Assembly (NCBI GenBank): GCA_039028155.1 | Contig: JBCCIS010000003.1 | Location: forward strand, 89,904-153,903 | Source: Pseudomonadota bacterium | GTDB taxonomy: Bacteria > Pseudomonadota > Alphaproteobacteria > SP197 | Length of the DNA stretch: 64,000 bases | Direction: 5' to 3' | Part shown: positions 9,534 through 55,753 of the stretch, in pieces | How the letters are laid out: each line of letters starts with the position of its first letter | Position numbering within the stretch: the first letter of the stretch is position 1 | The notes under the pieces: model-generated | Database searches by the model: none | Told to the model about the DNA's origin: nothing | The model's input: the letters and a program-made list of their open reading frames with translations, nothing else | Program-made: the position numbers and the translations under genes

Positions 9534-9596
9534 CGTCGCCGACGATAGTGACCGCCATCGTGGCGCCACCCCGCCGTTAGGCGCTAAAAGGCCCCC

Positions 9597-11285
9597 ATGC
9601 AGATCGACGACATCGACGACATTGCGGCGCTCAGGCGCCATGAGGCCGCCTGGCGTGCCGCCTACGACGCCGATCCGGACGCCCAGTACTTCATGTCCTG
9701 GCCGTGGATGGCGAACTGGCTCGACCTGATCGACGACCAGTGGCTGGTGCTCGCCGCCAGGGAAGATGACGCCTCGCCCTATACCGGTTTTCTTCCGATC
9801 CAGCTGTGGTCGGAGTTCAACACCGAGATCGGCTTCCACAACACGATCCGCATGGGCGGGTGCTACTATGCCGGCTACACCGGCATCATGTGCAGTGCCG
9901 AGGATGAAGAGCGCGTCGTCCCGGCATTCGCAAAGCGCCTGAAGCAGCTCAACTGGCTCGCGATCAGTGTCGACCGTGTCGTCGCCTCGCCGCGACGCAT
10001 GAAGCTGTTCTTGGGCGCCTTTGCGCCGTCCGAGTTCGACGTCCAGGCCGCCGAACCGAAACCGGATGAAAACGGCATCGACTTCACGGTCTACCCTTGC
10101 GTCGCGCTGCCGGACGACTGGGAGACGTTCCTGAAGAACCATATGGGGCATACGACGCGCAAGCATGCGCGGCGCGCCATGCGGCTTGTCGATGGCGGCG
10201 AGCTCAGCGTCACCCATGCGACGCCCGAAACCATCGATCGCGATCTCGGTATTCTGCTCGATCTGTGGAAGACAGCCTTCACACCAATCAAGACGGAGGC
10301 CGCCCTTGAGACCGAGATCAAGCATCACCGCACCATGCTGCGCGCCTGCTTCGACGAAGGCGATGTCATGCTGCCCGTGCTGTGGCAGGGCGACAAGCCG
10401 ATCGGCGCGCGCGCCAGGCTGCTGGATCAAAAGAATCGATCGATGATCTGCCTGGTCGGTGCCCGCGACCTCTCGGTCCGTCGCCCGCCGCCGGGCTTTA
10501 TTGTTCATCTCTATTCGATCCGTTGGGGTATCGAAAACGGCTACAAGACCTACGACCTGCAGCTCGGCGACTACAGCTACAAGTACGATTTCGGGCCCGA
10601 GGAACGGCGCATCATCAACCACGCGATCGTAACGAAGAGCAAACAGAACCTGCGTGGCAAGGTCGAGCCGCGAAGCCTGCCTTATGTCTTCGCCATGACG
10701 CAGAGTTTCGCGGCCGGCGGTCAGGCGGCCAACGCGGCGGCCGGGTGCCGCCAGATCCTGCAGATCGACCCCGACCACGCCGGTGCCCGCGAGATGCTCG
10801 AGAAGATCGAAGCGGCGTCGAAACCCGCCGACGACCCGGTTGCGGAGGCGCGTCAGCTGGTCCAACAAGGATCGTTCAGCGCGGCCGAGGAGATGCTGTC
10901 CCAACTGCTTGAGGACGATCCCAAGAACTTCGACGCGCGGTACACGCTGGGCCTGACGTTCCTTCAGCAGGGCGACAGCAAAAACGCCGAACAGCACTTA
11001 AGGCGCGCAATCGCGCTCAACGGCAAAGTCGCGTCAGCTTACTACAACTACGGTAACGCGCTGGCAGCGCTAAACCGACATGCCAAGGCGCTCAAGAGCT
11101 ACAAAAAGGCGATCTCGCTAAGGCCCGACTACCCGCAGGCGCATAACGCCCATGGCGAAGCCCTCATGGCACTTGGCCGGCGCGGTGAGGCGGCAAAGAG
11201 CTTCGATCAGGCGCTGGCGCTCCAACCAACCTATGCGCTGGCCCGACAAAACCGCGACAAGCTGAGCACGACGCGTCGCGCCTGA
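9597..11285 (+). CDS. BioF2-like (FemAB/CelD-type) acyltransferase fused to TPR repeats
   Basis: 562 residues in two parts. Residues 1 to about 370 look like the BioF2-like acetyltransferase domain (GNAT fold, CelD/FemAB group): YFMSWPWMANWLDL, then HTTRKHARRAMRLV, and a C-terminal GYKTYDLQLGDYSYKYDFG. From about 375 to the end there are tetratricopeptide repeats, for example FDARYTLGLTFLQQGDSKNAEQH and ASAYYNYGNALAALNRHAKALKS. The N-terminal domain is often found with exopolysaccharide genes. The TPR part suggests docking on a partner. No polysaccharide cluster surrounds it, so its role stays open. Confidence 0.78.
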   Translation: MQIDDIDDIAALRRHEAAWRAAYDADPDAQYFMSWPWMANWLDLIDDQWLVLAAREDDASPYTGFLPIQLWSEFNTEIGFHNTIRMGGCYYAGYTGIMCSAEDEERVVPAFAKRLKQLNWLAISVDRVVASPRRMKLFLGAFAPSEFDVQAAEPKPDENGIDFTVYPCVALPDDWETFLKNHMGHTTRKHARRAMRLVDGGELSVTHATPETIDRDLGILLDLWKTAFTPIKTEAALETEIKHHRTMLRACFDEGDVMLPVLWQGDKPIGARARLLDQKNRSMICLVGARDLSVRRPPPGFIVHLYSIRWGIENGYKTYDLQLGDYSYKYDFGPEERRIINHAIVTKSKQNLRGKVEPRSLPYVFAMTQSFAAGGQAANAAAGCRQILQIDPDHAGAREMLEKIEAASKPADDPVAEARQLVQQGSFSAAEEMLSQLLEDDPKNFDARYTLGLTFLQQGDSKNAEQHLRRAIALNGKVASAYYNYGNALAALNRHAKALKSYKKAISLRPDYPQAHNAHGEALMALGRRGEAAKSFDQALALQPTYALARQNRDKLSTTRRA

Positions 11286-13214: not shown

Positions 13215-13348
13215 GCCGTGTCCTCGTCGTGAATGACATTGCCATCGCGACCTTAGAGCCGGCAGCCGATGCAATCCAGACATGACGGCACTATGGTACG
13301 GTCTCGTAGGGTAGCTAACGCAGATCGTTCGAAAGAGGGAGAGCGCGT

Positions 13349-14158
13349 GTGATCGACGTGAGAAGGGTTCAGACCGCGACGGGTTTGGAGTTTGAAGTTG
13401 CCTGTTGCGGTGACATGGAAAACCCCATTGTCATGCTGCATGGCTATGGCGACAGTTGGTATTCCTTCAACGGGATGCTTGAGGCCCTGCCCGACGACAA
13501 GTCGGCCGTCGCGATTACCCAGCGCGGCCACGGCAACAGCGTCAAGCCCGAAGAAGACTATTCAACGCAGCAGTACGCCCGCGACGCCATCGGCGTCCTC
13601 GATGCTCTTGGCATTTCCCAGGCGCCGATCGTCGGTCACTCCATGGGAACGTTTATCGCGCAAGAGATCGCGCTTACGGCGCCATCCAGGGTCACCCACC
13701 TCATCCTGATCGCCTCTGCGGTCACCGCGGACAACGACGTCGTCGCCGGCCTTGCCGAAGAAGTCGCAAAACTGGGCGATCCCGTACCCCGGGCCTTTGT
13801 CCACGAATTCCAAGCCGGCACCTGCGCCAATCCACTGGGGCCTGGCATGGCGCTGGACCACATCGTCGACGAGAGCATGTTGCTGCCCGCGCGGGTCTGG
13901 CGCGACGCCCTGCAAGGCCTGCTCGCCTATCGGCCCAGGGACGTCGATCCGGATCTATCATCGATCGACTGTCCGACGCTCATCCTGTGGGGCGACGAGG
14001 ACGGGTTGTTCCTGGAGGCCGAGCAAACGCGCCTCAACCAGAAAATCACCGGCTCTGAACTGATGATCTATGAAGGCGTCGGGCACGGCCTCCAATGGGA
14101 GGCCCCGGTAGAGGCGATGATCGATACCTTGTCGTTCATCGCACGGCGCGGCGCATAG
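13349..14158 (+). CDS. Alpha/beta hydrolase
   Basis: 269 residues starting at a GTG behind GAGGGAGAG. The alpha/beta hydrolase fold is shown by the oxyanion region MLHGYGDSWYSF, the nucleophile elbow GHSMG with Ser98, an acid in TLILWGDEDGLF and a C-terminal His in EGVGHGLQWE. The cap region does not tell esterase, lactonase, haloalkane dehalogenase and C-C hydrolase apart, so no substrate is assigned. It ends 12 bases before the converging methyltransferase gene. Confidence 0.87.
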   Translation: MIDVRRVQTATGLEFEVACCGDMENPIVMLHGYGDSWYSFNGMLEALPDDKSAVAITQRGHGNSVKPEEDYSTQQYARDAIGVLDALGISQAPIVGHSMGTFIAQEIALTAPSRVTHLILIASAVTADNDVVAGLAEEVAKLGDPVPRAFVHEFQAGTCANPLGPGMALDHIVDESMLLPARVWRDALQGLLAYRPRDVDPDLSSIDCPTLILWGDEDGLFLEAEQTRLNQKITGSELMIYEGVGHGLQWEAPVEAMIDTLSFIARRGA

Positions 14159-48314: not shown

Positions 48315-49616
48315 GTGGGCGATGAACGGCGGCTCCGGGCGGCGCGGCGCGCGATCGCCCTGCTGCGCGAGCGGGTCGACGCGCACTTTTCGATCCGCTT
48401 GTGGGATGGATCGCTGGAGCCGCTGGGGACCACGGTAGTGCCTGGCCTTGCCATTCAGATCAACACGCCGGGCGTGCTGCCGTCGGTGCTGCGCCGGCCC
48501 AGCCTTGACCGGCTGATCCGTCACTATGCCCACGGTCGTCTGGATATCGAGGGCGGCACGCTGATTGATATCGCCGGACCGTTCGCGGTCGACAAGGCGG
48601 CGCGGCGGCGGCTCAAGACCGTCAACAAACGCGCGCTCGTGACCGCGCTGTGGCCGCTGTTGATCGCCAAGGGTGATCACCCTGACGCCAGCCGGCAGTT
48701 CGGCGACGACGCGGAAGGCGCGGAGCGCGCCAGCGACGACAACCGGCGCTTCATCCAGTTCCACTATGACGTCGGCAACGACTTCTACCGTCTCTTTCTG
48801 GACCCCCGGATGCAGTACTCCTGCGCCTGGTACCCGACATGGGAAACCGGACTGGATGACGCTCAGGAAGCCAAGCTCGACACTACCTGCCGTAAACTTC
48901 GCCTGAAGCCGGGTGACCGTCTGCTCGATATCGGCTGCGGCTGGGGCGGCCTATTGCTTCACGCCGCACAGAACTACGGCATCACCGGCCATGGCGTCAC
49001 CTTGTCGGAAGAGCAACTGGCCTTGGCGCAAGAGCGTGTCGATGAGCTGGGTCTCAGCGACCGCATCACGCTGGAACTTAAGGACTATCAGAACCTTGAT
49101 GGCCAGTTCGATAAGATCGCGTCCATCGGCATGTATGAACACATTGGCCTCGACAACATTCCCGCCTACTTTTCCAAGGTGCAGACCCTGCTCGCCGAAG
49201 GCGGACTGTTCCTCAACCACGCGATCTCACGTGGCGCCAAGAAACGTAAGAAGCGCTTTTCCAAGCGCCCCGAACAACAGGCACTGCAGAAGTACATTTT
49301 CCCCGGTGGCGAACTCGACGATATCGGCCACACGATCGCGGCGATGGAGCAGCACGGTTTCGAGGTCCACGATGTCGAGGGCTGGCGCGAACATTACCAA
49401 AAGACGACGCGGATCTGGTGCGAGCGGCTGACCGCCCGGCGCGAAGAGGCGGAGGCGCTGGTCGGACCGGAGACCTACCGCATTTGGGTCGCCTATCTTG
49501 GCGGCTGTTCCCTGGCGTTCCAACGCGGCTCGGCGCGTATCTATCAGACGCTTGCGGGTAAGTCGGCAAAGGGCCCGGCCGCCGTGCCGCCCAGTCGCGC
49601 TGATCTCTATCGCTGA
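48315..49616 (+). CDS. cfa: Cyclopropane-fatty-acyl-phospholipid synthase
   Basis: 433 residues from a GTG. The N-terminal lipid-binding part (IRHYAHGRLDIEGGTLIDI) precedes the SAM site LLDIGCGWGGLLLHAAQNYGITGHGVTLSEEQ and the catalytic region YDVGNDFYRLFLDPRMQYSCAWY. It adds a methylene bridge from SAM to unsaturated acyl chains in membrane phospholipids, usually in stress or stationary phase. The C-terminus (GPETYRIWVAYLGGCSLAFQ) has a fossil copy after the next gene. Confidence 0.93.
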   Translation: MGDERRLRAARRAIALLRERVDAHFSIRLWDGSLEPLGTTVVPGLAIQINTPGVLPSVLRRPSLDRLIRHYAHGRLDIEGGTLIDIAGPFAVDKAARRRLKTVNKRALVTALWPLLIAKGDHPDASRQFGDDAEGAERASDDNRRFIQFHYDVGNDFYRLFLDPRMQYSCAWYPTWETGLDDAQEAKLDTTCRKLRLKPGDRLLDIGCGWGGLLLHAAQNYGITGHGVTLSEEQLALAQERVDELGLSDRITLELKDYQNLDGQFDKIASIGMYEHIGLDNIPAYFSKVQTLLAEGGLFLNHAISRGAKKRKKRFSKRPEQQALQKYIFPGGELDDIGHTIAAMEQHGFEVHDVEGWREHYQKTTRIWCERLTARREEAEALVGPETYRIWVAYLGGCSLAFQRGSARIYQTLAGKSAKGPAAVPPSRADLYR

Positions 49617-49637
49617 CGCGTTGGGAGCGCCAGCGCG

Positions 49638-51176
49638 GTGGCGATGATAACCGATGACAACCGGCGTTGGTGGGTCGCGGGCACCATGGGGCTTCCGCTC
49701 ATCACGCTGACCATCGACGTGTTTGGTGTCACCGTCGCCCTTCCCTCGATCGGTCGCGATCTCAACACCGGCACCGTCACGCTTGCCTGGGTTATCAATG
49801 CGTTCATGCTGGGCTTCGCCAGCATGCTGATCGTCGGCGGCCGGCTTGGCGATCTTCTGGGCCGGCGCAAGTTGCTGCTTGCCGGCGTCGTGCTCTTCGT
49901 CGCCTCTTCCATACTGTCCGGCCTTGCGCCATCCGGATCCTGGCTGATCGCGGCGCGTGGGATCCAGGGCGTCGCGGGCGGTTTTGTCTACGCCAACTCA
50001 CTTTCTGTGGTGGCGAACGCCTTCCCCAGCGAACAACGCCATCTCGGTATCAGTTTGTGGATTGGCATCGGTGCCGTCGGTTCGGCGGTCGGACCGTTTG
50101 TCGGCGGCTTGTTGACCGAAGAACTGTCATGGCGCTGGTTTTTCCTTTTGAACGTGCCCATCGGCGCGGTCGCCGTCATCATGACGTTCCTGTTGGTCAA
50201 GGAATCCCGCGATGAAGAGGCACCGCCAAAGATCGACTGGTTCGGCTGCGCGCTTTCGGTCGCCGGCCTCGTCCTCATCGTCATGGGACTGCAACTGGCC
50301 GGCAATCTCGGCTGGTCGTCATTGACCGTTTGGGCATGCCTTGTTGTCGGTCTCGCCGTTTCGGCTGCCTTCATCGTGTTCGAGACCAAGACCAGGTTCC
50401 CCTTGATCGACTTCCAGTTGTTCCGAAACCGTAACTTCGGCAGCAGCGCGTCCGTCGGCTTCGTGATCAACTTCACGCTGGGCGCGTTGATGTTGTATCT
50501 GGCGCTCTACCTTCAGCACGTTTTGAAGCTCTCGCCGCTTTCCGCTGGCCTGGTGTTTCTTGGGTACTCCGGCATGATGGCGGTGATATCGACGTCCAAT
50601 GCGTATTTCATGAACCGCTGGGGCGCACGGCGGACGATGGCCACGGGCATGCTGTTGAATGCCGCCAGCTTTCTGGTCCTTGCGTTCGCGGAGCCGACAA
50701 CCGGTCTGGTCATCATCGTCGCGGCTCTCGTCTTGGGTGGCGCCGGCCAATCGTTCGCCTACACGACCGCGACATCGCTGGCCATGGCGTCCGTGTCCGA
50801 GCAGAAATCCGGCGCCGCATCCGGCGCTGTTGGCATGATCAGGATTTCCGCCACGACGGTTGGCGTGGCCGTTTCGACAGCGGTCTTCAAGGCGATCGAA
50901 AACGGAGAGCTGGTATCGCATATCGGCAAGGCCGGTGGTCGTCTGACGCGCGCGGAGGCCCGCGACATTCACGTCTTGGTGGCCGGTTCCGATCAGGCCG
51001 CCGCTAAGCTGGCCCATGACGTACCGGCAGCCGCGGGCAAGATGTCGGACATCGTCAATCAGGCTTTGATGGCGGGCTTCGGCGGCGCGATGTTTCTTTG
51101 CGTTGCTGCATCGGTGGTTGGTTTAATGGTCGCCTTCCTGGCCCGGTCGCGACCTCCGGCTGGCGAAAAGAGCTGA
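49638..51176 (+). CDS. DHA2-type (14-helix) MFS drug exporter, paralogue 1
   Basis: 512 residues from a GTG at 49638 with GGGAG upstream; an ATG follows two codons later. The protein opens ITDDNRRWWVAGTMGLPLITLTIDVFGVTVALP and carries LGRRKLLLAG (motif A), FVGGLLTEELSWRWFFLLNVPIG and 14 hydrophobic segments, as in EmrB/QacA exporters. It is followed by two close paralogues. No EmrA-like adaptor is near, so single-membrane export is likely. Substrates are unknown. Confidence 0.9.
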   Translation: MAMITDDNRRWWVAGTMGLPLITLTIDVFGVTVALPSIGRDLNTGTVTLAWVINAFMLGFASMLIVGGRLGDLLGRRKLLLAGVVLFVASSILSGLAPSGSWLIAARGIQGVAGGFVYANSLSVVANAFPSEQRHLGISLWIGIGAVGSAVGPFVGGLLTEELSWRWFFLLNVPIGAVAVIMTFLLVKESRDEEAPPKIDWFGCALSVAGLVLIVMGLQLAGNLGWSSLTVWACLVVGLAVSAAFIVFETKTRFPLIDFQLFRNRNFGSSASVGFVINFTLGALMLYLALYLQHVLKLSPLSAGLVFLGYSGMMAVISTSNAYFMNRWGARRTMATGMLLNAASFLVLAFAEPTTGLVIIVAALVLGGAGQSFAYTTATSLAMASVSEQKSGAASGAVGMIRISATTVGVAVSTAVFKAIENGELVSHIGKAGGRLTRAEARDIHVLVAGSDQAAAKLAHDVPAAAGKMSDIVNQALMAGFGGAMFLCVAASVVGLMVAFLARSRPPAGEKS

Positions 51177-51177
51177 G

Positions 51178-51270
51178 GTGATGGCGCTGATCGGGCGAGC
51201 GACTTATCGTGTGTGGCTTGACGGTCGGGGCGGCTGTTCGCCGGCCTTTCAGCGTCGCCTAGCAGCGCCG
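51178..51270 (+). pseudogene. Fossil of the cfa 3' end between MFS paralogues 1 and 2
   Basis: Translated in one frame, this stretch reads ALIGRATYRVW, then GGCSPAFQRRLA, against ALVGPETYRIW and GGCSLAFQRGSA in cfa. About half of 33 aligned residues are identical and many of the matching codons differ only at the third base. There is no start and no other cfa sequence. It is best explained as the upstream edge of a tandem duplication that copied the 3' end of cfa together with the MFS gene. Confidence 0.8.
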
Positions 51271-51305
51271 ATCCTTGCCACTGAGATGTCGTGGGTACCG
51301 GTGCG

Positions 51306-52844
51306 ATGACGATCATAACGGACGACAACCGCCGCTGGTGGGTCGCAGGCGCCATGGCGCTGCCTCTCGTGGTGCTGACCCTCGACTATTTCGGCGTGTC
51401 CGTTGCCCTGCCCGCTATTGGACGCGACCTCAAGATCGGCACGGTGACCCTGGCCTGGATCATCAACGCTTACATGCTGGGTTTGGCAAGCATGCTGATC
51501 GTCGGCGGCCGGCTTGGCGATTTGCTCGGCCGGCGAAAGATGCTGTTCGCCGGCGTCACGGTCTTTGTCGTAGCGTCCGTCGTCTGCGGCCTCGCACCGA
51601 CCGGTGCCGTGCTTGTCGGCGCGCGCGCTGTCCAGGGTGCGGCCGCCGGGTTCATCTTCACCAACACGCTCTCCATCGTCACCAATGCGTTTCCCAGTGA
51701 CCAGCGGAATGTCGGCGTTAGCTTTTGGGTTGGCATCGGTGCCGTCGGCTCGGCGATCGGTCCGTTCGTCGGTGGCCTGCTGACCGAATTGGTGTCATGG
51801 CGCTGGTTCTTTTTCCTGAACGCGCCGTTCTGCATCGCCACCCTGGCCTTTTTGCTGCTGCTGATACGCGAGTCACGTGACGAGGAATCGCCGCCGAAGA
51901 TCGACTGGTTGGGTTGCGCCACGTCGATTGGCGGACTCGCCTGCGTGGTGCTGGGGCTGCAGCTCGCCGGCAATGTCGGCTGGACGGCCTGGGCGGTCTG
52001 GCTGTCTCTGGCCATCGGTGTGACCCTCCTGATCGCCTTCCTCATGATCGAAAACAGGGTCGCGTTCCCGCTGATCGACTTCCAGCTGTTCAAGAGCCGC
52101 GATTTCGGTAGCTGCGCCAGCGTCGGCTTCCTGATCAACCTTTCGCTTGGTTCGCTCATGCTGTTTCTGGCGCTTTACCTGCAGCATGTTCTGAACCTTT
52201 CGCCCATAGGCGCTGGGCTCGTGTTTCTGGGCTATTCGGTCATGCTGGCGATTACCGCGTCATCCAATGCGTTCGTCTTGAACCGGTTGGGCGCGCGCCA
52301 GACCATGGCGGCCGGTATGCTGCTGAACGGTCTGAGCTTCCTGATCCTCGTCTTCTCGGAGATGACAACCGGTGTTGCCGTCATCGTCGGCGCGCTCGTC
52401 CTGGGCGGCGCCGGCCAGGCGCTAGCCTATACGACATCGACATCCCTGGCGGTGGGCTCCGTGTCCGAACAAAAAACCGGGGCGGCGTCCGGTATTGTCA
52501 GCATGGTCAGAATGGTCGCGGTCACGATCGGTGTCGCTATCTCGACCGCGCTTTTCAAGTTTCTTGAGACCGGCGCTATGGTATCGCTGATCGGCAAGGC
52601 CGGCGGCGACCTGTCGCGCGCGGAGGTGCGGGACATTCACGTGTTGGTGGCCGGCTCCGACCAGTCGGCCACCAAGCTCGCCCACGATGTACCGGCGGCC
52701 GCCGATGAGATGCCGATGATCGTCGATCAGGCCCTGATGGCTGGATTCGGTGGCGTCATGATCATGTGCGTCGCCGTGTCGATCATCGGCTTGGCGGCAG
52801 CCTTCGTGGCGCGCCCAAACAAACCGGATGCGGTCGACGACTAA
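51306..52844 (+). CDS. DHA2-type MFS drug exporter, paralogue 2
   Basis: About 512 residues from ATG 51306, chosen because IITDDNRRWWVAGAMALPL matches the N-termini of the neighbouring paralogues; a GTG five codons upstream is possible. It keeps LGRRKMLFAG, FVGGLLTELVSWRWFFFLNAPF and a C-terminal tail ARPNKPDAVDD. It is separated from paralogue 1 by a fossil of cfa, which shows that it arose by duplication. No strong ribosome site is seen. Confidence 0.9.
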   Translation: MTIITDDNRRWWVAGAMALPLVVLTLDYFGVSVALPAIGRDLKIGTVTLAWIINAYMLGLASMLIVGGRLGDLLGRRKMLFAGVTVFVVASVVCGLAPTGAVLVGARAVQGAAAGFIFTNTLSIVTNAFPSDQRNVGVSFWVGIGAVGSAIGPFVGGLLTELVSWRWFFFLNAPFCIATLAFLLLLIRESRDEESPPKIDWLGCATSIGGLACVVLGLQLAGNVGWTAWAVWLSLAIGVTLLIAFLMIENRVAFPLIDFQLFKSRDFGSCASVGFLINLSLGSLMLFLALYLQHVLNLSPIGAGLVFLGYSVMLAITASSNAFVLNRLGARQTMAAGMLLNGLSFLILVFSEMTTGVAVIVGALVLGGAGQALAYTTSTSLAVGSVSEQKTGAASGIVSMVRMVAVTIGVAISTALFKFLETGAMVSLIGKAGGDLSRAEVRDIHVLVAGSDQSATKLAHDVPAAADEMPMIVDQALMAGFGGVMIMCVAVSIIGLAAAFVARPNKPDAVDD

Positions 52845-53068
52845 GGCGCCGTGACCTGGTAGTTCCGATTAAGGCGTTCAACGCGCAGCGGATTGAACTC
52901 GTAGCAGTCATCTGGCGAGCGGCCGCGTCCACATGTCGGCTTCACCGGTTGCCGTTCGATGGCGACGCATGTCGCCAGCGGCGCGCTCATCAGAAATACC
53001 AAAAATCCGCGCCGGCCAAGGCCCTTTTCAGTGCGCTGCGTCGACGCTGTCGTAGCGTGTTTCTTCAT
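52841..53068 (-). CDS. Possible small exported lipoprotein
   Basis: 75 residues: a basic N-terminus, a hydrophobic stretch with a twin-Arg (GRRGFLVFLMSAPLATC) that could be a lipoprotein signal with Cys34, then a short Cys-containing tail (PTCGRGRSPDDCYEFNP). It overlaps the end of MFS paralogue 2 by four bases on the opposite strand. No good ribosome site precedes the ATG and no family is recognised, so it is tentative. Confidence 0.35.
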   Translation of the reverse strand: MKKHATTASTQRTEKGLGRRGFLVFLMSAPLATCVAIERQPVKPTCGRGRSPDDCYEFNPLRVERLNRNYQVTAP

Positions 53069-53323
53069 GGTGAGGAATCTATCAAGCTGCGCCAGAAAAC
53101 AAAAGAGCGCCGGGCTGGGAGCCCATGACGACGAGGTGGTGACCTTGGTCGAGCCGGCGACCTGTTGTATACCGTTTACCTGTCTGACCACGTGATCGCG
53201 TGCTGTTCAGAGCGGCTCGGTGCACAGCCACCTGATGCTAGCCGATAGGTCGCCCTGGCACCAAGTGCCGCGCCGCCAAGCGGCGCCGATCCCAACCGTT
53301 GGGCTGCGCAGGGGGAAGAATCA
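53069..53323. other. Duplication scar between MFS paralogues 2 and 3
   Basis: This stretch has no gene. At 53092-53115 it matches 55004-55027, downstream of MFS paralogue 3, in 22 of 24 bases (core AAAGAGCGCCGGGC); here the hairpin behind it is mostly decayed. At about 53144-53195 a weak trace of the cfa end can be read (TLVEPAT against ALVGPET). The order, terminator relic then cfa trace then MFS, is what tandem duplication would leave. Confidence 0.55.
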
Positions 53324-54886
53324 ATGGGTATCGTTACCGAAGACAATCGCTACTGGTGGGTCGCCAGCGCGATGGCTCTGTGCGTCGTCGTGCTGACGAT
53401 CGACTTTTTCGGCGTTTCGGTAGCACTACCCTCGATTGGACGCGAACTGGGCACCAGCACGTCGACCCTCGCCTGGGTCATCAATGCCTTCATGCTGGGC
53501 CTGGTCGGCACACTGGTCGTCGGTGGACGCCTTGGTGATTTGCTTGGTCGACGCAGAATGCTGTTGGCCGGGCTCCTTACCTTCACCGCAAGTTCAATCC
53601 TGTGCGGCCTCGCGCCGTCAGCCGTGTGGCTCATCGTTGGGCGCGCAATTCAGGGCGCGGCGGCGGGTTTTCTGTTCAGCAATTCTCTCTCCATTGCCAC
53701 GAATGCATTTCCCAGCGACAAGCGTCATGTCGCCGTCAGCTTTTGGGCCGGCATCGGCACGGTGGGTTCGGCGGTCGGTCCCTTTGTCGGCGGCCTGTTG
53801 ACCGACGAACTGTCCTGGCGCTGGTTCTTCTTCATCAACATTCCGTTCGGTGTCGCCGCGCTGTTTTTGATCCTGCTGGTCGTTCGCGAGTCGCGGGACG
53901 AAGACGCACCACGGATCATCGATTGGATGGGCTGTACACTGACGATCGCCGGCATGGTGCTTCTCGTCTTGGGATTGGAGCTTTCCAACAGCCTGGGCTG
54001 GCAAGACCTTGCCGTCTGGATCACGCTGGTCGTGGCGGTGGTGGTCTTGGCGGCCTTTGTCATTGTCGAGCGGAAGGTTCGGTTTCCCCTCATTGATTTC
54101 CAGCTCTTCTCCGGCCGGGACTTTGTCTGCGCGTCGCTGATCGGTTTTTTGATCAACTTCACGCTGGGCGCGCTGATGCTGTTTCTGGCGCTCTACCTGC
54201 AGCATGTGCTCCGTCTCTCACCGCTTACCGCCGGCCTTATCTTTCTCGGGTACTCCGTGATGCTGGCGGTTGTATCGTTGCTGAACGCCAAGATCATGGA
54301 GACGCTGGGTCCCCGGCACACCGTGATCATCGGCATGGCGCTGAATGCCGCCAGCTTTCTCATTCTCTTCTTCTGCGACACGGAAACCGGTATCGCCGTG
54401 ATCGTCGCGGCGCTCGCGCTGGGCGGTGCCGGCCAGGCGCTCGCCTATACGACAGCTGCCTCGATCGCCATGGCATCCGTGCCCGAACAGAAGGGCGGCG
54501 CGGCCTCCGGCACGCTTGGCTGCGTGCGGATCGCTGGCACGGCGGTTGGCGTCGCGGTCGCCACCGCTCTCTTCAAGGCCCTGGAGAACGATGAACTTTC
54601 GGCGCTGATCGCCAAGGCCGGCGGGTCCCTTTCTGCCGCCAGTATTCGTGAGATCAAAGGCCTGCTTGCCGGCACCGATGCCGCCGCCGCCGAGCTCGCC
54701 AAGGCGGCGCCTGCCGCGGCGTCAACGATGAGAACGATCGTGGACCAGGCATTTGTCACCGGTTTCGGAGGTCTGATGGCCTTTTGTGCCGTCTTGTCGG
54801 TGATTGGCGTCGCCGTTGCCTTCATGCTTCGCCCCGTCCTTGTCACAGCCAAGGACGAAGTCATCGAGGAGATCGAACCTGAATAG
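53324..54886 (+). CDS. DHA2-type MFS drug exporter, paralogue 3
   Basis: 520 residues from ATG 53324, preceded by GGGGGA. It opens GIVTEDNRYWWVASAMALCVVVLTIDFFGVSVALP, keeps LGRRRMLLAG and FVGGLLTDELSWRWFFFINIPFG, and ends in a short acidic tail (KDEVIEEIEPE) absent from the other two. It is the third member of the tandem family. The intact terminator of the converging hsp20 gene follows it. Confidence 0.9.
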   Translation: MGIVTEDNRYWWVASAMALCVVVLTIDFFGVSVALPSIGRELGTSTSTLAWVINAFMLGLVGTLVVGGRLGDLLGRRRMLLAGLLTFTASSILCGLAPSAVWLIVGRAIQGAAAGFLFSNSLSIATNAFPSDKRHVAVSFWAGIGTVGSAVGPFVGGLLTDELSWRWFFFINIPFGVAALFLILLVVRESRDEDAPRIIDWMGCTLTIAGMVLLVLGLELSNSLGWQDLAVWITLVVAVVVLAAFVIVERKVRFPLIDFQLFSGRDFVCASLIGFLINFTLGALMLFLALYLQHVLRLSPLTAGLIFLGYSVMLAVVSLLNAKIMETLGPRHTVIIGMALNAASFLILFFCDTETGIAVIVAALALGGAGQALAYTTAASIAMASVPEQKGGAASGTLGCVRIAGTAVGVAVATALFKALENDELSALIAKAGGSLSAASIREIKGLLAGTDAAAAELAKAAPAAASTMRTIVDQAFVTGFGGLMAFCAVLSVIGVAVAFMLRPVLVTAKDEVIEEIEPE

Positions 54887-55014
54887 GCCGTTGTCCGTTT
54901 TCCGCTAGGGGGAGAACATCAACGTGATCCAGATCGAGAAAAGGGGTTCGCGCAACCGCCTGTAAACGGCGCCGATGTCGTGGAACGAGACTGATCGGCT
55001 ACTCCGGAAAACGA

Positions 55015-55044
55015 AAGAGCGCCGGGCCAAAAGCCCGACGCTCT
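55015..55044 (-). terminator. Intrinsic terminator of hsp20
   Basis: On the minus strand GAGCGTCGGGC, TTTTG and GCCCGGCGCTC form a long GC-rich stem followed by TTTCGTTTT. It lies 21 bases after the hsp20 stop. A degraded near-copy of one arm lies at 53092-53125. Confidence 0.8.
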
Positions 55045-55065
55045 CCTTAGACCATTCAACGATTG

Positions 55066-55542
55066 TTAAGCGGCCTTCTTGTCGCTCTCGTCGATCAGCT
55101 TGCCGGCGACCTTCTCGCCAGACTGGATCGCGATCTTGCGCGGCTTTTTCTCTTCAGGAATTTCGCGCTTCAGATCGATGTGGAGCAGGCCGTTGACCAA
55201 CCGTGCGCTCACGACCTTGACGTGGTCGGCGAGCTGGAAGGTGCGCTTGAAGCTGCGCCCGGCAATACCGCGATAGAGGAAGTTGCGGTCGTCTCCGGTC
55301 TTGTCTTCGGAGATCCGGCCGCTGACGTGAAGGGTGTCCTCACGCGCCTCGATCTCGACATCGTCCTCACTGAAACCGGCGACAGCCATCGTGATCTGAT
55401 AGGTGTCGGCGTCCAGCTTCTCGATGTTGTAGGGCGGATAACCGGTCTGATCGGCGACACCGGTCGTCGAATCAAGCAGGTTCATCATGCGGTCGAAGCC
55501 GACCGTCGAACGGAAAAGGGGAGAGAAATCATAACGGGTCAT
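55066..55542 (-). CDS. Small heat-shock protein (Hsp20/alpha-crystallin, IbpA-like)
   Basis: 158 residues from ATG 55542, with AGGAGG about ten bases upstream; the longer frame covers the leader. The N-terminal TRYDFSPLFRSTVGFDRMMNLLD is typical of class A rhizobial Hsp20. An alpha-crystallin domain follows (YQITMAVAGFSEDDVEIEAREDTLHVSGR to GLLHIDLKREIPEEKKPRKI), with the IAI-type C-terminal anchor. It is an ATP-independent holdase that forms oligomers on unfolding proteins. A sigma-32 promoter and a ROSE-like thermometer precede it. Confidence 0.95.
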   Translation of the reverse strand: MTRYDFSPLFRSTVGFDRMMNLLDSTTGVADQTGYPPYNIEKLDADTYQITMAVAGFSEDDVEIEAREDTLHVSGRISEDKTGDDRNFLYRGIAGRSFKRTFQLADHVKVVSARLVNGLLHIDLKREIPEEKKPRKIAIQSGEKVAGKLIDESDKKAA

Positions 55543-55546
55543 TGCC

Positions 55547-55654
55547 ACATATCCTCCTATGAGCAACATGTAGTTCCAAGTGGCCCACCCATCTGGGCTG
55601 GGCCGGTGAAGTGTCCGCAAATGGCGTTCCCGCAACGCGGCGAACGCCGGACAC
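55547..55654 (-). promoter_or_regulatory. ROSE-like RNA thermometer in the hsp20 leader
   Basis: Three hairpins can be drawn in the minus-strand leader. The first has GTGTCCG paired with CGGACAC (55611-55654) enclosing GGCGTTC/GAACGCC. The second is GGCCCA with TGGGCC (55582-55604). The third is ACATGTTGCT-cat-AGGAGGATATGT (55547-55571), in which the Shine-Dalgarno AGGAGG pairs with TTGCT. A U(U/C)GCU facing the Shine-Dalgarno sequence, with a bulged G, is the hallmark of ROSE elements, which melt on heating. Confidence 0.8.
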
Positions 55655-55661
55655 GCTCTTG

Positions 55662-55689
55662 ATATGGGGCCGATCGGACCGGTTTCAAG
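55662..55689 (-). promoter_or_regulatory. Sigma-32 (RpoH) heat-shock promoter of hsp20
   Basis: CTTGAAA (55683-55689), 13 bases, then CCCCATAT (55662-55669) on the minus strand match the RpoH consensus. The predicted start near 55655 gives a leader of about 110 bases, beginning right before the first thermometer hairpin. Confidence 0.88.
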
Positions 55690-55753
55690 TCCCACGGAAG
55701 GCCATCTAACCTGCTGATAAGGAACGAAAGTCAGGCGAAATCATGGCGTCTGG

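Follow-up and report, generated by a model that had tools for sequence, protein, structure and literature searches.

A DHA2-type MFS gene array with copied cfa ends and a copied hsp20 terminator in its spacers: very probably an old tandem amplification

Gene organization of the locus

The locus was analyzed within a 64,000-nt stretch of DNA (the window), to which all bare coordinates refer. A cfa-like gene (48315..49616, plus strand) is followed by three MFS genes on the same strand and then by a convergent hsp20 gene (55066..55695, minus strand; Pfam HSP20 PF00011, 68.7 bits). The MFS genes, copy 1 (49638..51176, with a GTG start), copy 2 (51306..52844) and copy 3 (53324..54886), all on the plus strand, repeat in register with start-to-start spacings of 1668 and 2018 bases. 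The initial annotation had described three open MFS genes after cfa, and all elements of that description were recovered in place. Scanning the region for promoters gave no sigma-70-like site.

The product of the cfa-like gene shares the CMAS domain with cyclopropane-fatty-acid synthase (Pfam PF02353, 311 bits) and is 94% identical to its counterpart in a sister genome. While it reaches the family-level threshold of PF02353, it stays below the cut-offs of the curated Cfa equivalogs, with 251.6 against 400 for NF008686 and 346.1 against 650 for NF040703, so that its identity as Cfa is only putative.

The search for close relatives yielded a single one, a MAG of a sister species in the same genus (L009, JANQGO010000061.1), which has the same MFS triplet in the same gene order. 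Genome G001 contains the same contig as L009, and the independent genomes with the locus thus number two. Between its MFS copy 3 and the hsp20 terminator, L009 carries an extra minus-strand gene (13261-13800), putatively VOC-like and named by eye; the corresponding site in the window is occupied by about 120 bases of unrelated sequence.

Common ancestry and maintenance of the three MFS genes

The three MFS copies share 60-67% identity with one another, and the next-closest gene in the genome reaches about 34-36%. In a tree of the six proteins of the two species with the ten nearest paralogues of both genomes, the six form one clade with support 100/100. The phylogenetic check suggested by the initial annotation thus places the three proteins together against their closest outside relatives, and they share a common ancestor. 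Within the clade the copies pair by position across the species, with support of 100/99 for copy 1, 80/71 for copy 2 and 100/100 for copy 3. Which two copies are sisters is not settled by the tree, the alternatives to the best topology having p-AU values of 0.19 and 0.08. No close MFS homologue was found in the family, order, class and phylum samples.

All three proteins score well above the gathering cut-off of the Pfam MFS model PF07690 (156-169 bits against 33.4), and they have this MFS_1 domain in common with the DHA2 (14-helix drug:H+ antiporter) exporters EmrB, QacA, LfrA and EfpA. The best curated models are EmrB/LfrA, and of the relatives with solved structures the best are EfpA and QacA-type proteins. 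The antiporter-type motifs GSAxGPFVGG and GGRLGDLxGRRK/R can be read in the sequences of all copies. Relative to the DHA2 family as a whole, however, only copy 3 exceeds the cut-off of TIGR00711 (243.0 bits against 230.2), with copies 1 and 2 below it at 213.6 and 183.5 bits, and the clade formed by the copies was found in this genus only. Another run of three MFS genes occurs elsewhere in the same genome (G000:C10:119465-124872, minus strand), with 24-34% identity to copy 1.

Synonymous distances (Nei-Gojobori) are 0.89-1.15 among the copies and 0.47-0.63 between the species, and because of these distances the duplication must be regarded as old. Between-species dN/dS values are 0.16, 0.13 and 0.21 for copies 1, 2 and 3, respectively. 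There was no sign of gene conversion among the copies, with 13-20 sites of the species pattern against 186-269 of the paralogue pattern. Therefore, each MFS copy is maintained by purifying selection. The initial annotation had gone on from the open frames to selection for separate functions. Purifying selection on each copy agrees with the first half of that claim, but the second half reaches beyond the evidence, and a division of labor among the three pumps is a plausible idea.

Decayed cfa ends in the spacers

Each of the two spacers between the MFS genes holds a decayed copy of the 3' end of cfa. Fossil 1 (51175..51304, plus strand) corresponds to this end plus the cfa-MFS spacer, and fossil 2 (about 53127-53300, plus strand) to this end. 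For each of them, 0 of 500 dinucleotide shuffles matched the score obtained with the cfa tail. Since cfa is coding and GC-rich, we also applied a stricter control with real sequence, in which the cfa tail was aligned to tiles covering the two strands of the window (1008 in all). Spacer 2 ranked first (268) and spacer 1 second (213), against 164 for the best unrelated tile and a background mean of 84 (sd 17.5). A tblastn search with the cfa protein gave a match at 51190-51255 (E 0.003). Preservation is better in the sister genome, where spacer 1 (9538-9728) can be aligned with the entire 3' end of that genome's cfa gene, its stop codon position included, and with the cfa-MFS spacer. The cfa-like segments thus also come through the alignment check that the initial annotation had proposed. 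These alignments bear out the earlier reading of fossil 1 as a copy of the cfa C-terminus, now with 51175-51304 as the best register. They also bear out the cfa trace after the terminator block of the second spacer, although that trace had been called weak and actually scores higher than fossil 1.

The codon pattern of fossil 1 needs a different explanation than the one given initially. Compared to the live cfa gene, differences over the first 27 codons are distributed as 5/8/13 over the three codon positions. When live cfa is compared across the two species, the same codons differ by 1/1/10, whereas fossil 1 differs from the sister cfa by 6/7/8. The third-base excess therefore belongs mainly to silent drift of the live cfa gene and not to selection on the fossil. 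Consequently, the great age that the initial annotation had deduced from third-base changes stands, but it is the MFS synonymous distances that support it and not this bias.

In both species the stop codon of MFS copy 1 (TGA) shares bases with the GAG at the start of fossil 1, so that part of this stop was apparently contributed by the copied cfa end. An open frame crosses the fossil (51181-51309), starting with an ATG 4 bases past the stop of MFS copy 1; its TGA stop and the start codon of MFS copy 2 overlap in the sequence ATGA. The frame is open in both species, with 42 and 62 codons, and such a frame was open in 36% and 21% of shuffles. The encoded peptide differs largely between the species, its conservation being lost after an indel. 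It seems unlikely to us that fossil 1 has been reused as a translational bridge by which ribosomes would be passed from MFS copy 1 to copy 2 through reinitiation.

A copied hsp20 terminator and a small gene in spacer 2

The live terminator of hsp20 (55008..55046, minus strand; fold z -4.7) consists of a hairpin and a U-rich tail located about 20 bases past the hsp20 stop. As noted in the initial annotation, 22 of 24 bases are identical between 53092-53115 and 55004-55027, and the whole repeat covers 39 nt with 79% identity, giving a decayed terminator copy at 53086..53126 (minus strand). Elsewhere in the family, in several genera and species, counterpart hairpins of the GGAGCGCCGGGC...GCCCGGCGCTCTTTT type lie 3' of hsp20, and the home of the terminator is therefore hsp20, the copy in spacer 2 being the derived one. 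What had been described as a terminator following copy 3 is indeed repeated in spacer 2, but it belongs to the convergent hsp20 gene and acts on the minus strand. Exact sites of the motif occur in both genomes at these two places only, and the possibility that it is a dispersed repeat was rejected.

Spacer 2 also holds a small gene of 75 amino acids (52841..53068, minus strand), convergent with MFS copy 2 and overlapping its stop codon with its own. Its N-terminus is twin-arginine-like (GRRGFLVFLMSAPLATC; read from sequence) and lipobox-like. The gene is kept in the sister genome (L009 11264-11491, minus strand) with 84% amino acid identity and a dN/dS of 0.18. The product had no Pfam match, and a search of the family and class samples found the gene only in the two sister genomes.

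The sister genome preserves the same components. In its spacer 2, an intact hairpin copy, folding as an 11-pair stem, is followed directly by the cfa trace. In its spacer 3, the VOC-like gene is followed by the string CATGGTGAGGAACCTATC...GAAAACGAAAGAGCGCCGGGCC, which is repeated in spacer 2. The repeat shared by these two L009 spacers (CATGGTGAGGAACCTATC...GAAAACGAAAG) represents, in spacer 2, the beginning of the small gene together with the terminator.

The duplicated unit and its joint

Spacer 2 thus contains the small gene, the hsp20 terminator and the cfa 3' end, and spacer 1 the cfa 3' end only; no remnant of the small gene or of the terminator was detected in spacer 1 of either species. 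The duplicated unit is the cfa 3' end, an MFS gene in the same orientation, and the small gene and the hsp20 terminator in the opposite one, about 2.0 kb in all. This length equals the 2018-base step between MFS copies 2 and 3. The unit proposed initially (cfa 3' end, MFS, terminator) was right as far as it went, but it was incomplete, missing the small convergent gene and the placement of the terminator on the other strand.

The right edge of the unit is fixed by the fact that the terminator belongs to hsp20 elsewhere in the family, and it falls at the terminator arm GCCCGACGC (55033-55041). At the joint in spacer 2, this arm meets the cfa sequence GCCCGGCGC (49434-49442, plus strand), the presumed left breakpoint of the unit, which shares microhomology with the arm. 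The joint between cfa and terminator sequence sits on GCCCG(G/A)CGC. Near-matches of 9 bases as good as that of the joint occur in 0.16% of random position pairs, and GCCCG(G/A)CGC is a likely microhomology breakpoint.

The same layout and the same joints are present in both genomes, and the triplication therefore predates the split of the two species. A single-copy ancestral arrangement was found neither in the family and order (16 genomes) nor among the sampled genomes of the class (385) and phylum (398), so that the polarity of the events rests on the fossils and on the position of the terminator elsewhere.

History of the array

Very probably, the locus goes back to a single DHA2-type MFS gene that was amplified in tandem long ago, with decayed flanks left at the joints. 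The ancestral order would have been cfa and MFS in one direction, followed by the small gene, the terminator and hsp20 in the other. A head-to-tail duplication of about 2.0 kb would then have copied the segment running from about cfa codon 374 through the terminator of hsp20 to its 3' side; the probable mechanism is illegitimate recombination or replication slippage between the cfa and terminator-arm sequences described above. The third MFS copy would have come from a second event. The non-coding parts would subsequently have decayed to fossils, while purifying selection kept three MFS genes and one small gene.

For the second event, the composition of spacer 1 could be explained in two ways. 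The first two units may have undergone homologous unequal crossing-over that produced the third copy, and spacer 1 may later have lost the small gene and terminator; alternatively, a second, independent breakpoint may have been used at the MFS stop codon. That cfa homology begins at nearly the same base in fossil 1 (49446) and fossil 2 (49434-49443), as expected for an inherited joint, argues for crossing-over. On the other hand, the lack of any small-gene or terminator remnant in spacer 1 of both species means that the deletion would need to have ended almost exactly at the joint. We consider the chances of crossing-over with subsequent deletion to be about even.

A different origin of the fossils would be the duplication of complete cfa-MFS modules, with the extra cfa genes expressed for some time and later deleted to their 3' ends. 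The codon-like pattern of fossil 1 could be taken to point in this direction, but it is accounted for by drift of the live gene. Moreover, the fossils in both species start within about 10 bases of one cfa position, which fits a shared breakpoint better than two independent deletions and makes whole-module duplication very improbable. Still less credible is that the cfa-like and terminator-like traces are chance similarities in GC-rich DNA and the MFS genes separate acquisitions: although the traces in the window are short and gapped when taken alone, with only z = 2 for fossil 1 against fossil 2 directly, both outrank every other one of the 1008 tiles, the near-complete cfa tail in the sister spacer refutes chance, the terminator motif is confined to two sites, and the MFS proteins are one clade.

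Comparison with known tandem duplications

Tandem duplication joints with an age of about one synonymous change per site are thus still readable in bacterial spacers, their edges being fixed here by comparison with a sister genome and by where a neighbor's terminator lies. The locus also illustrates how the ends of copied genes turn into spacer sequence and may go so far as to provide a stop codon.

The process itself is known and common. Bacterial tandem duplication and amplification give head-to-tail copies of short segments, the joints being marked by truncated neighbors and the breakpoint by a short match, as found here. Tandem duplications studied experimentally are recent and may be lost again. 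Compared to the studied cases, the present array is very old, with synonymous divergence near 1, and all copies have been kept while the joints are still legible. Engineered duplications are an example of such experimentally studied cases (PMC12607827), and our literature search returned general papers on tandem duplication but no locus of this kind. The array described here is an unusually legible and well-preserved case of a common process.
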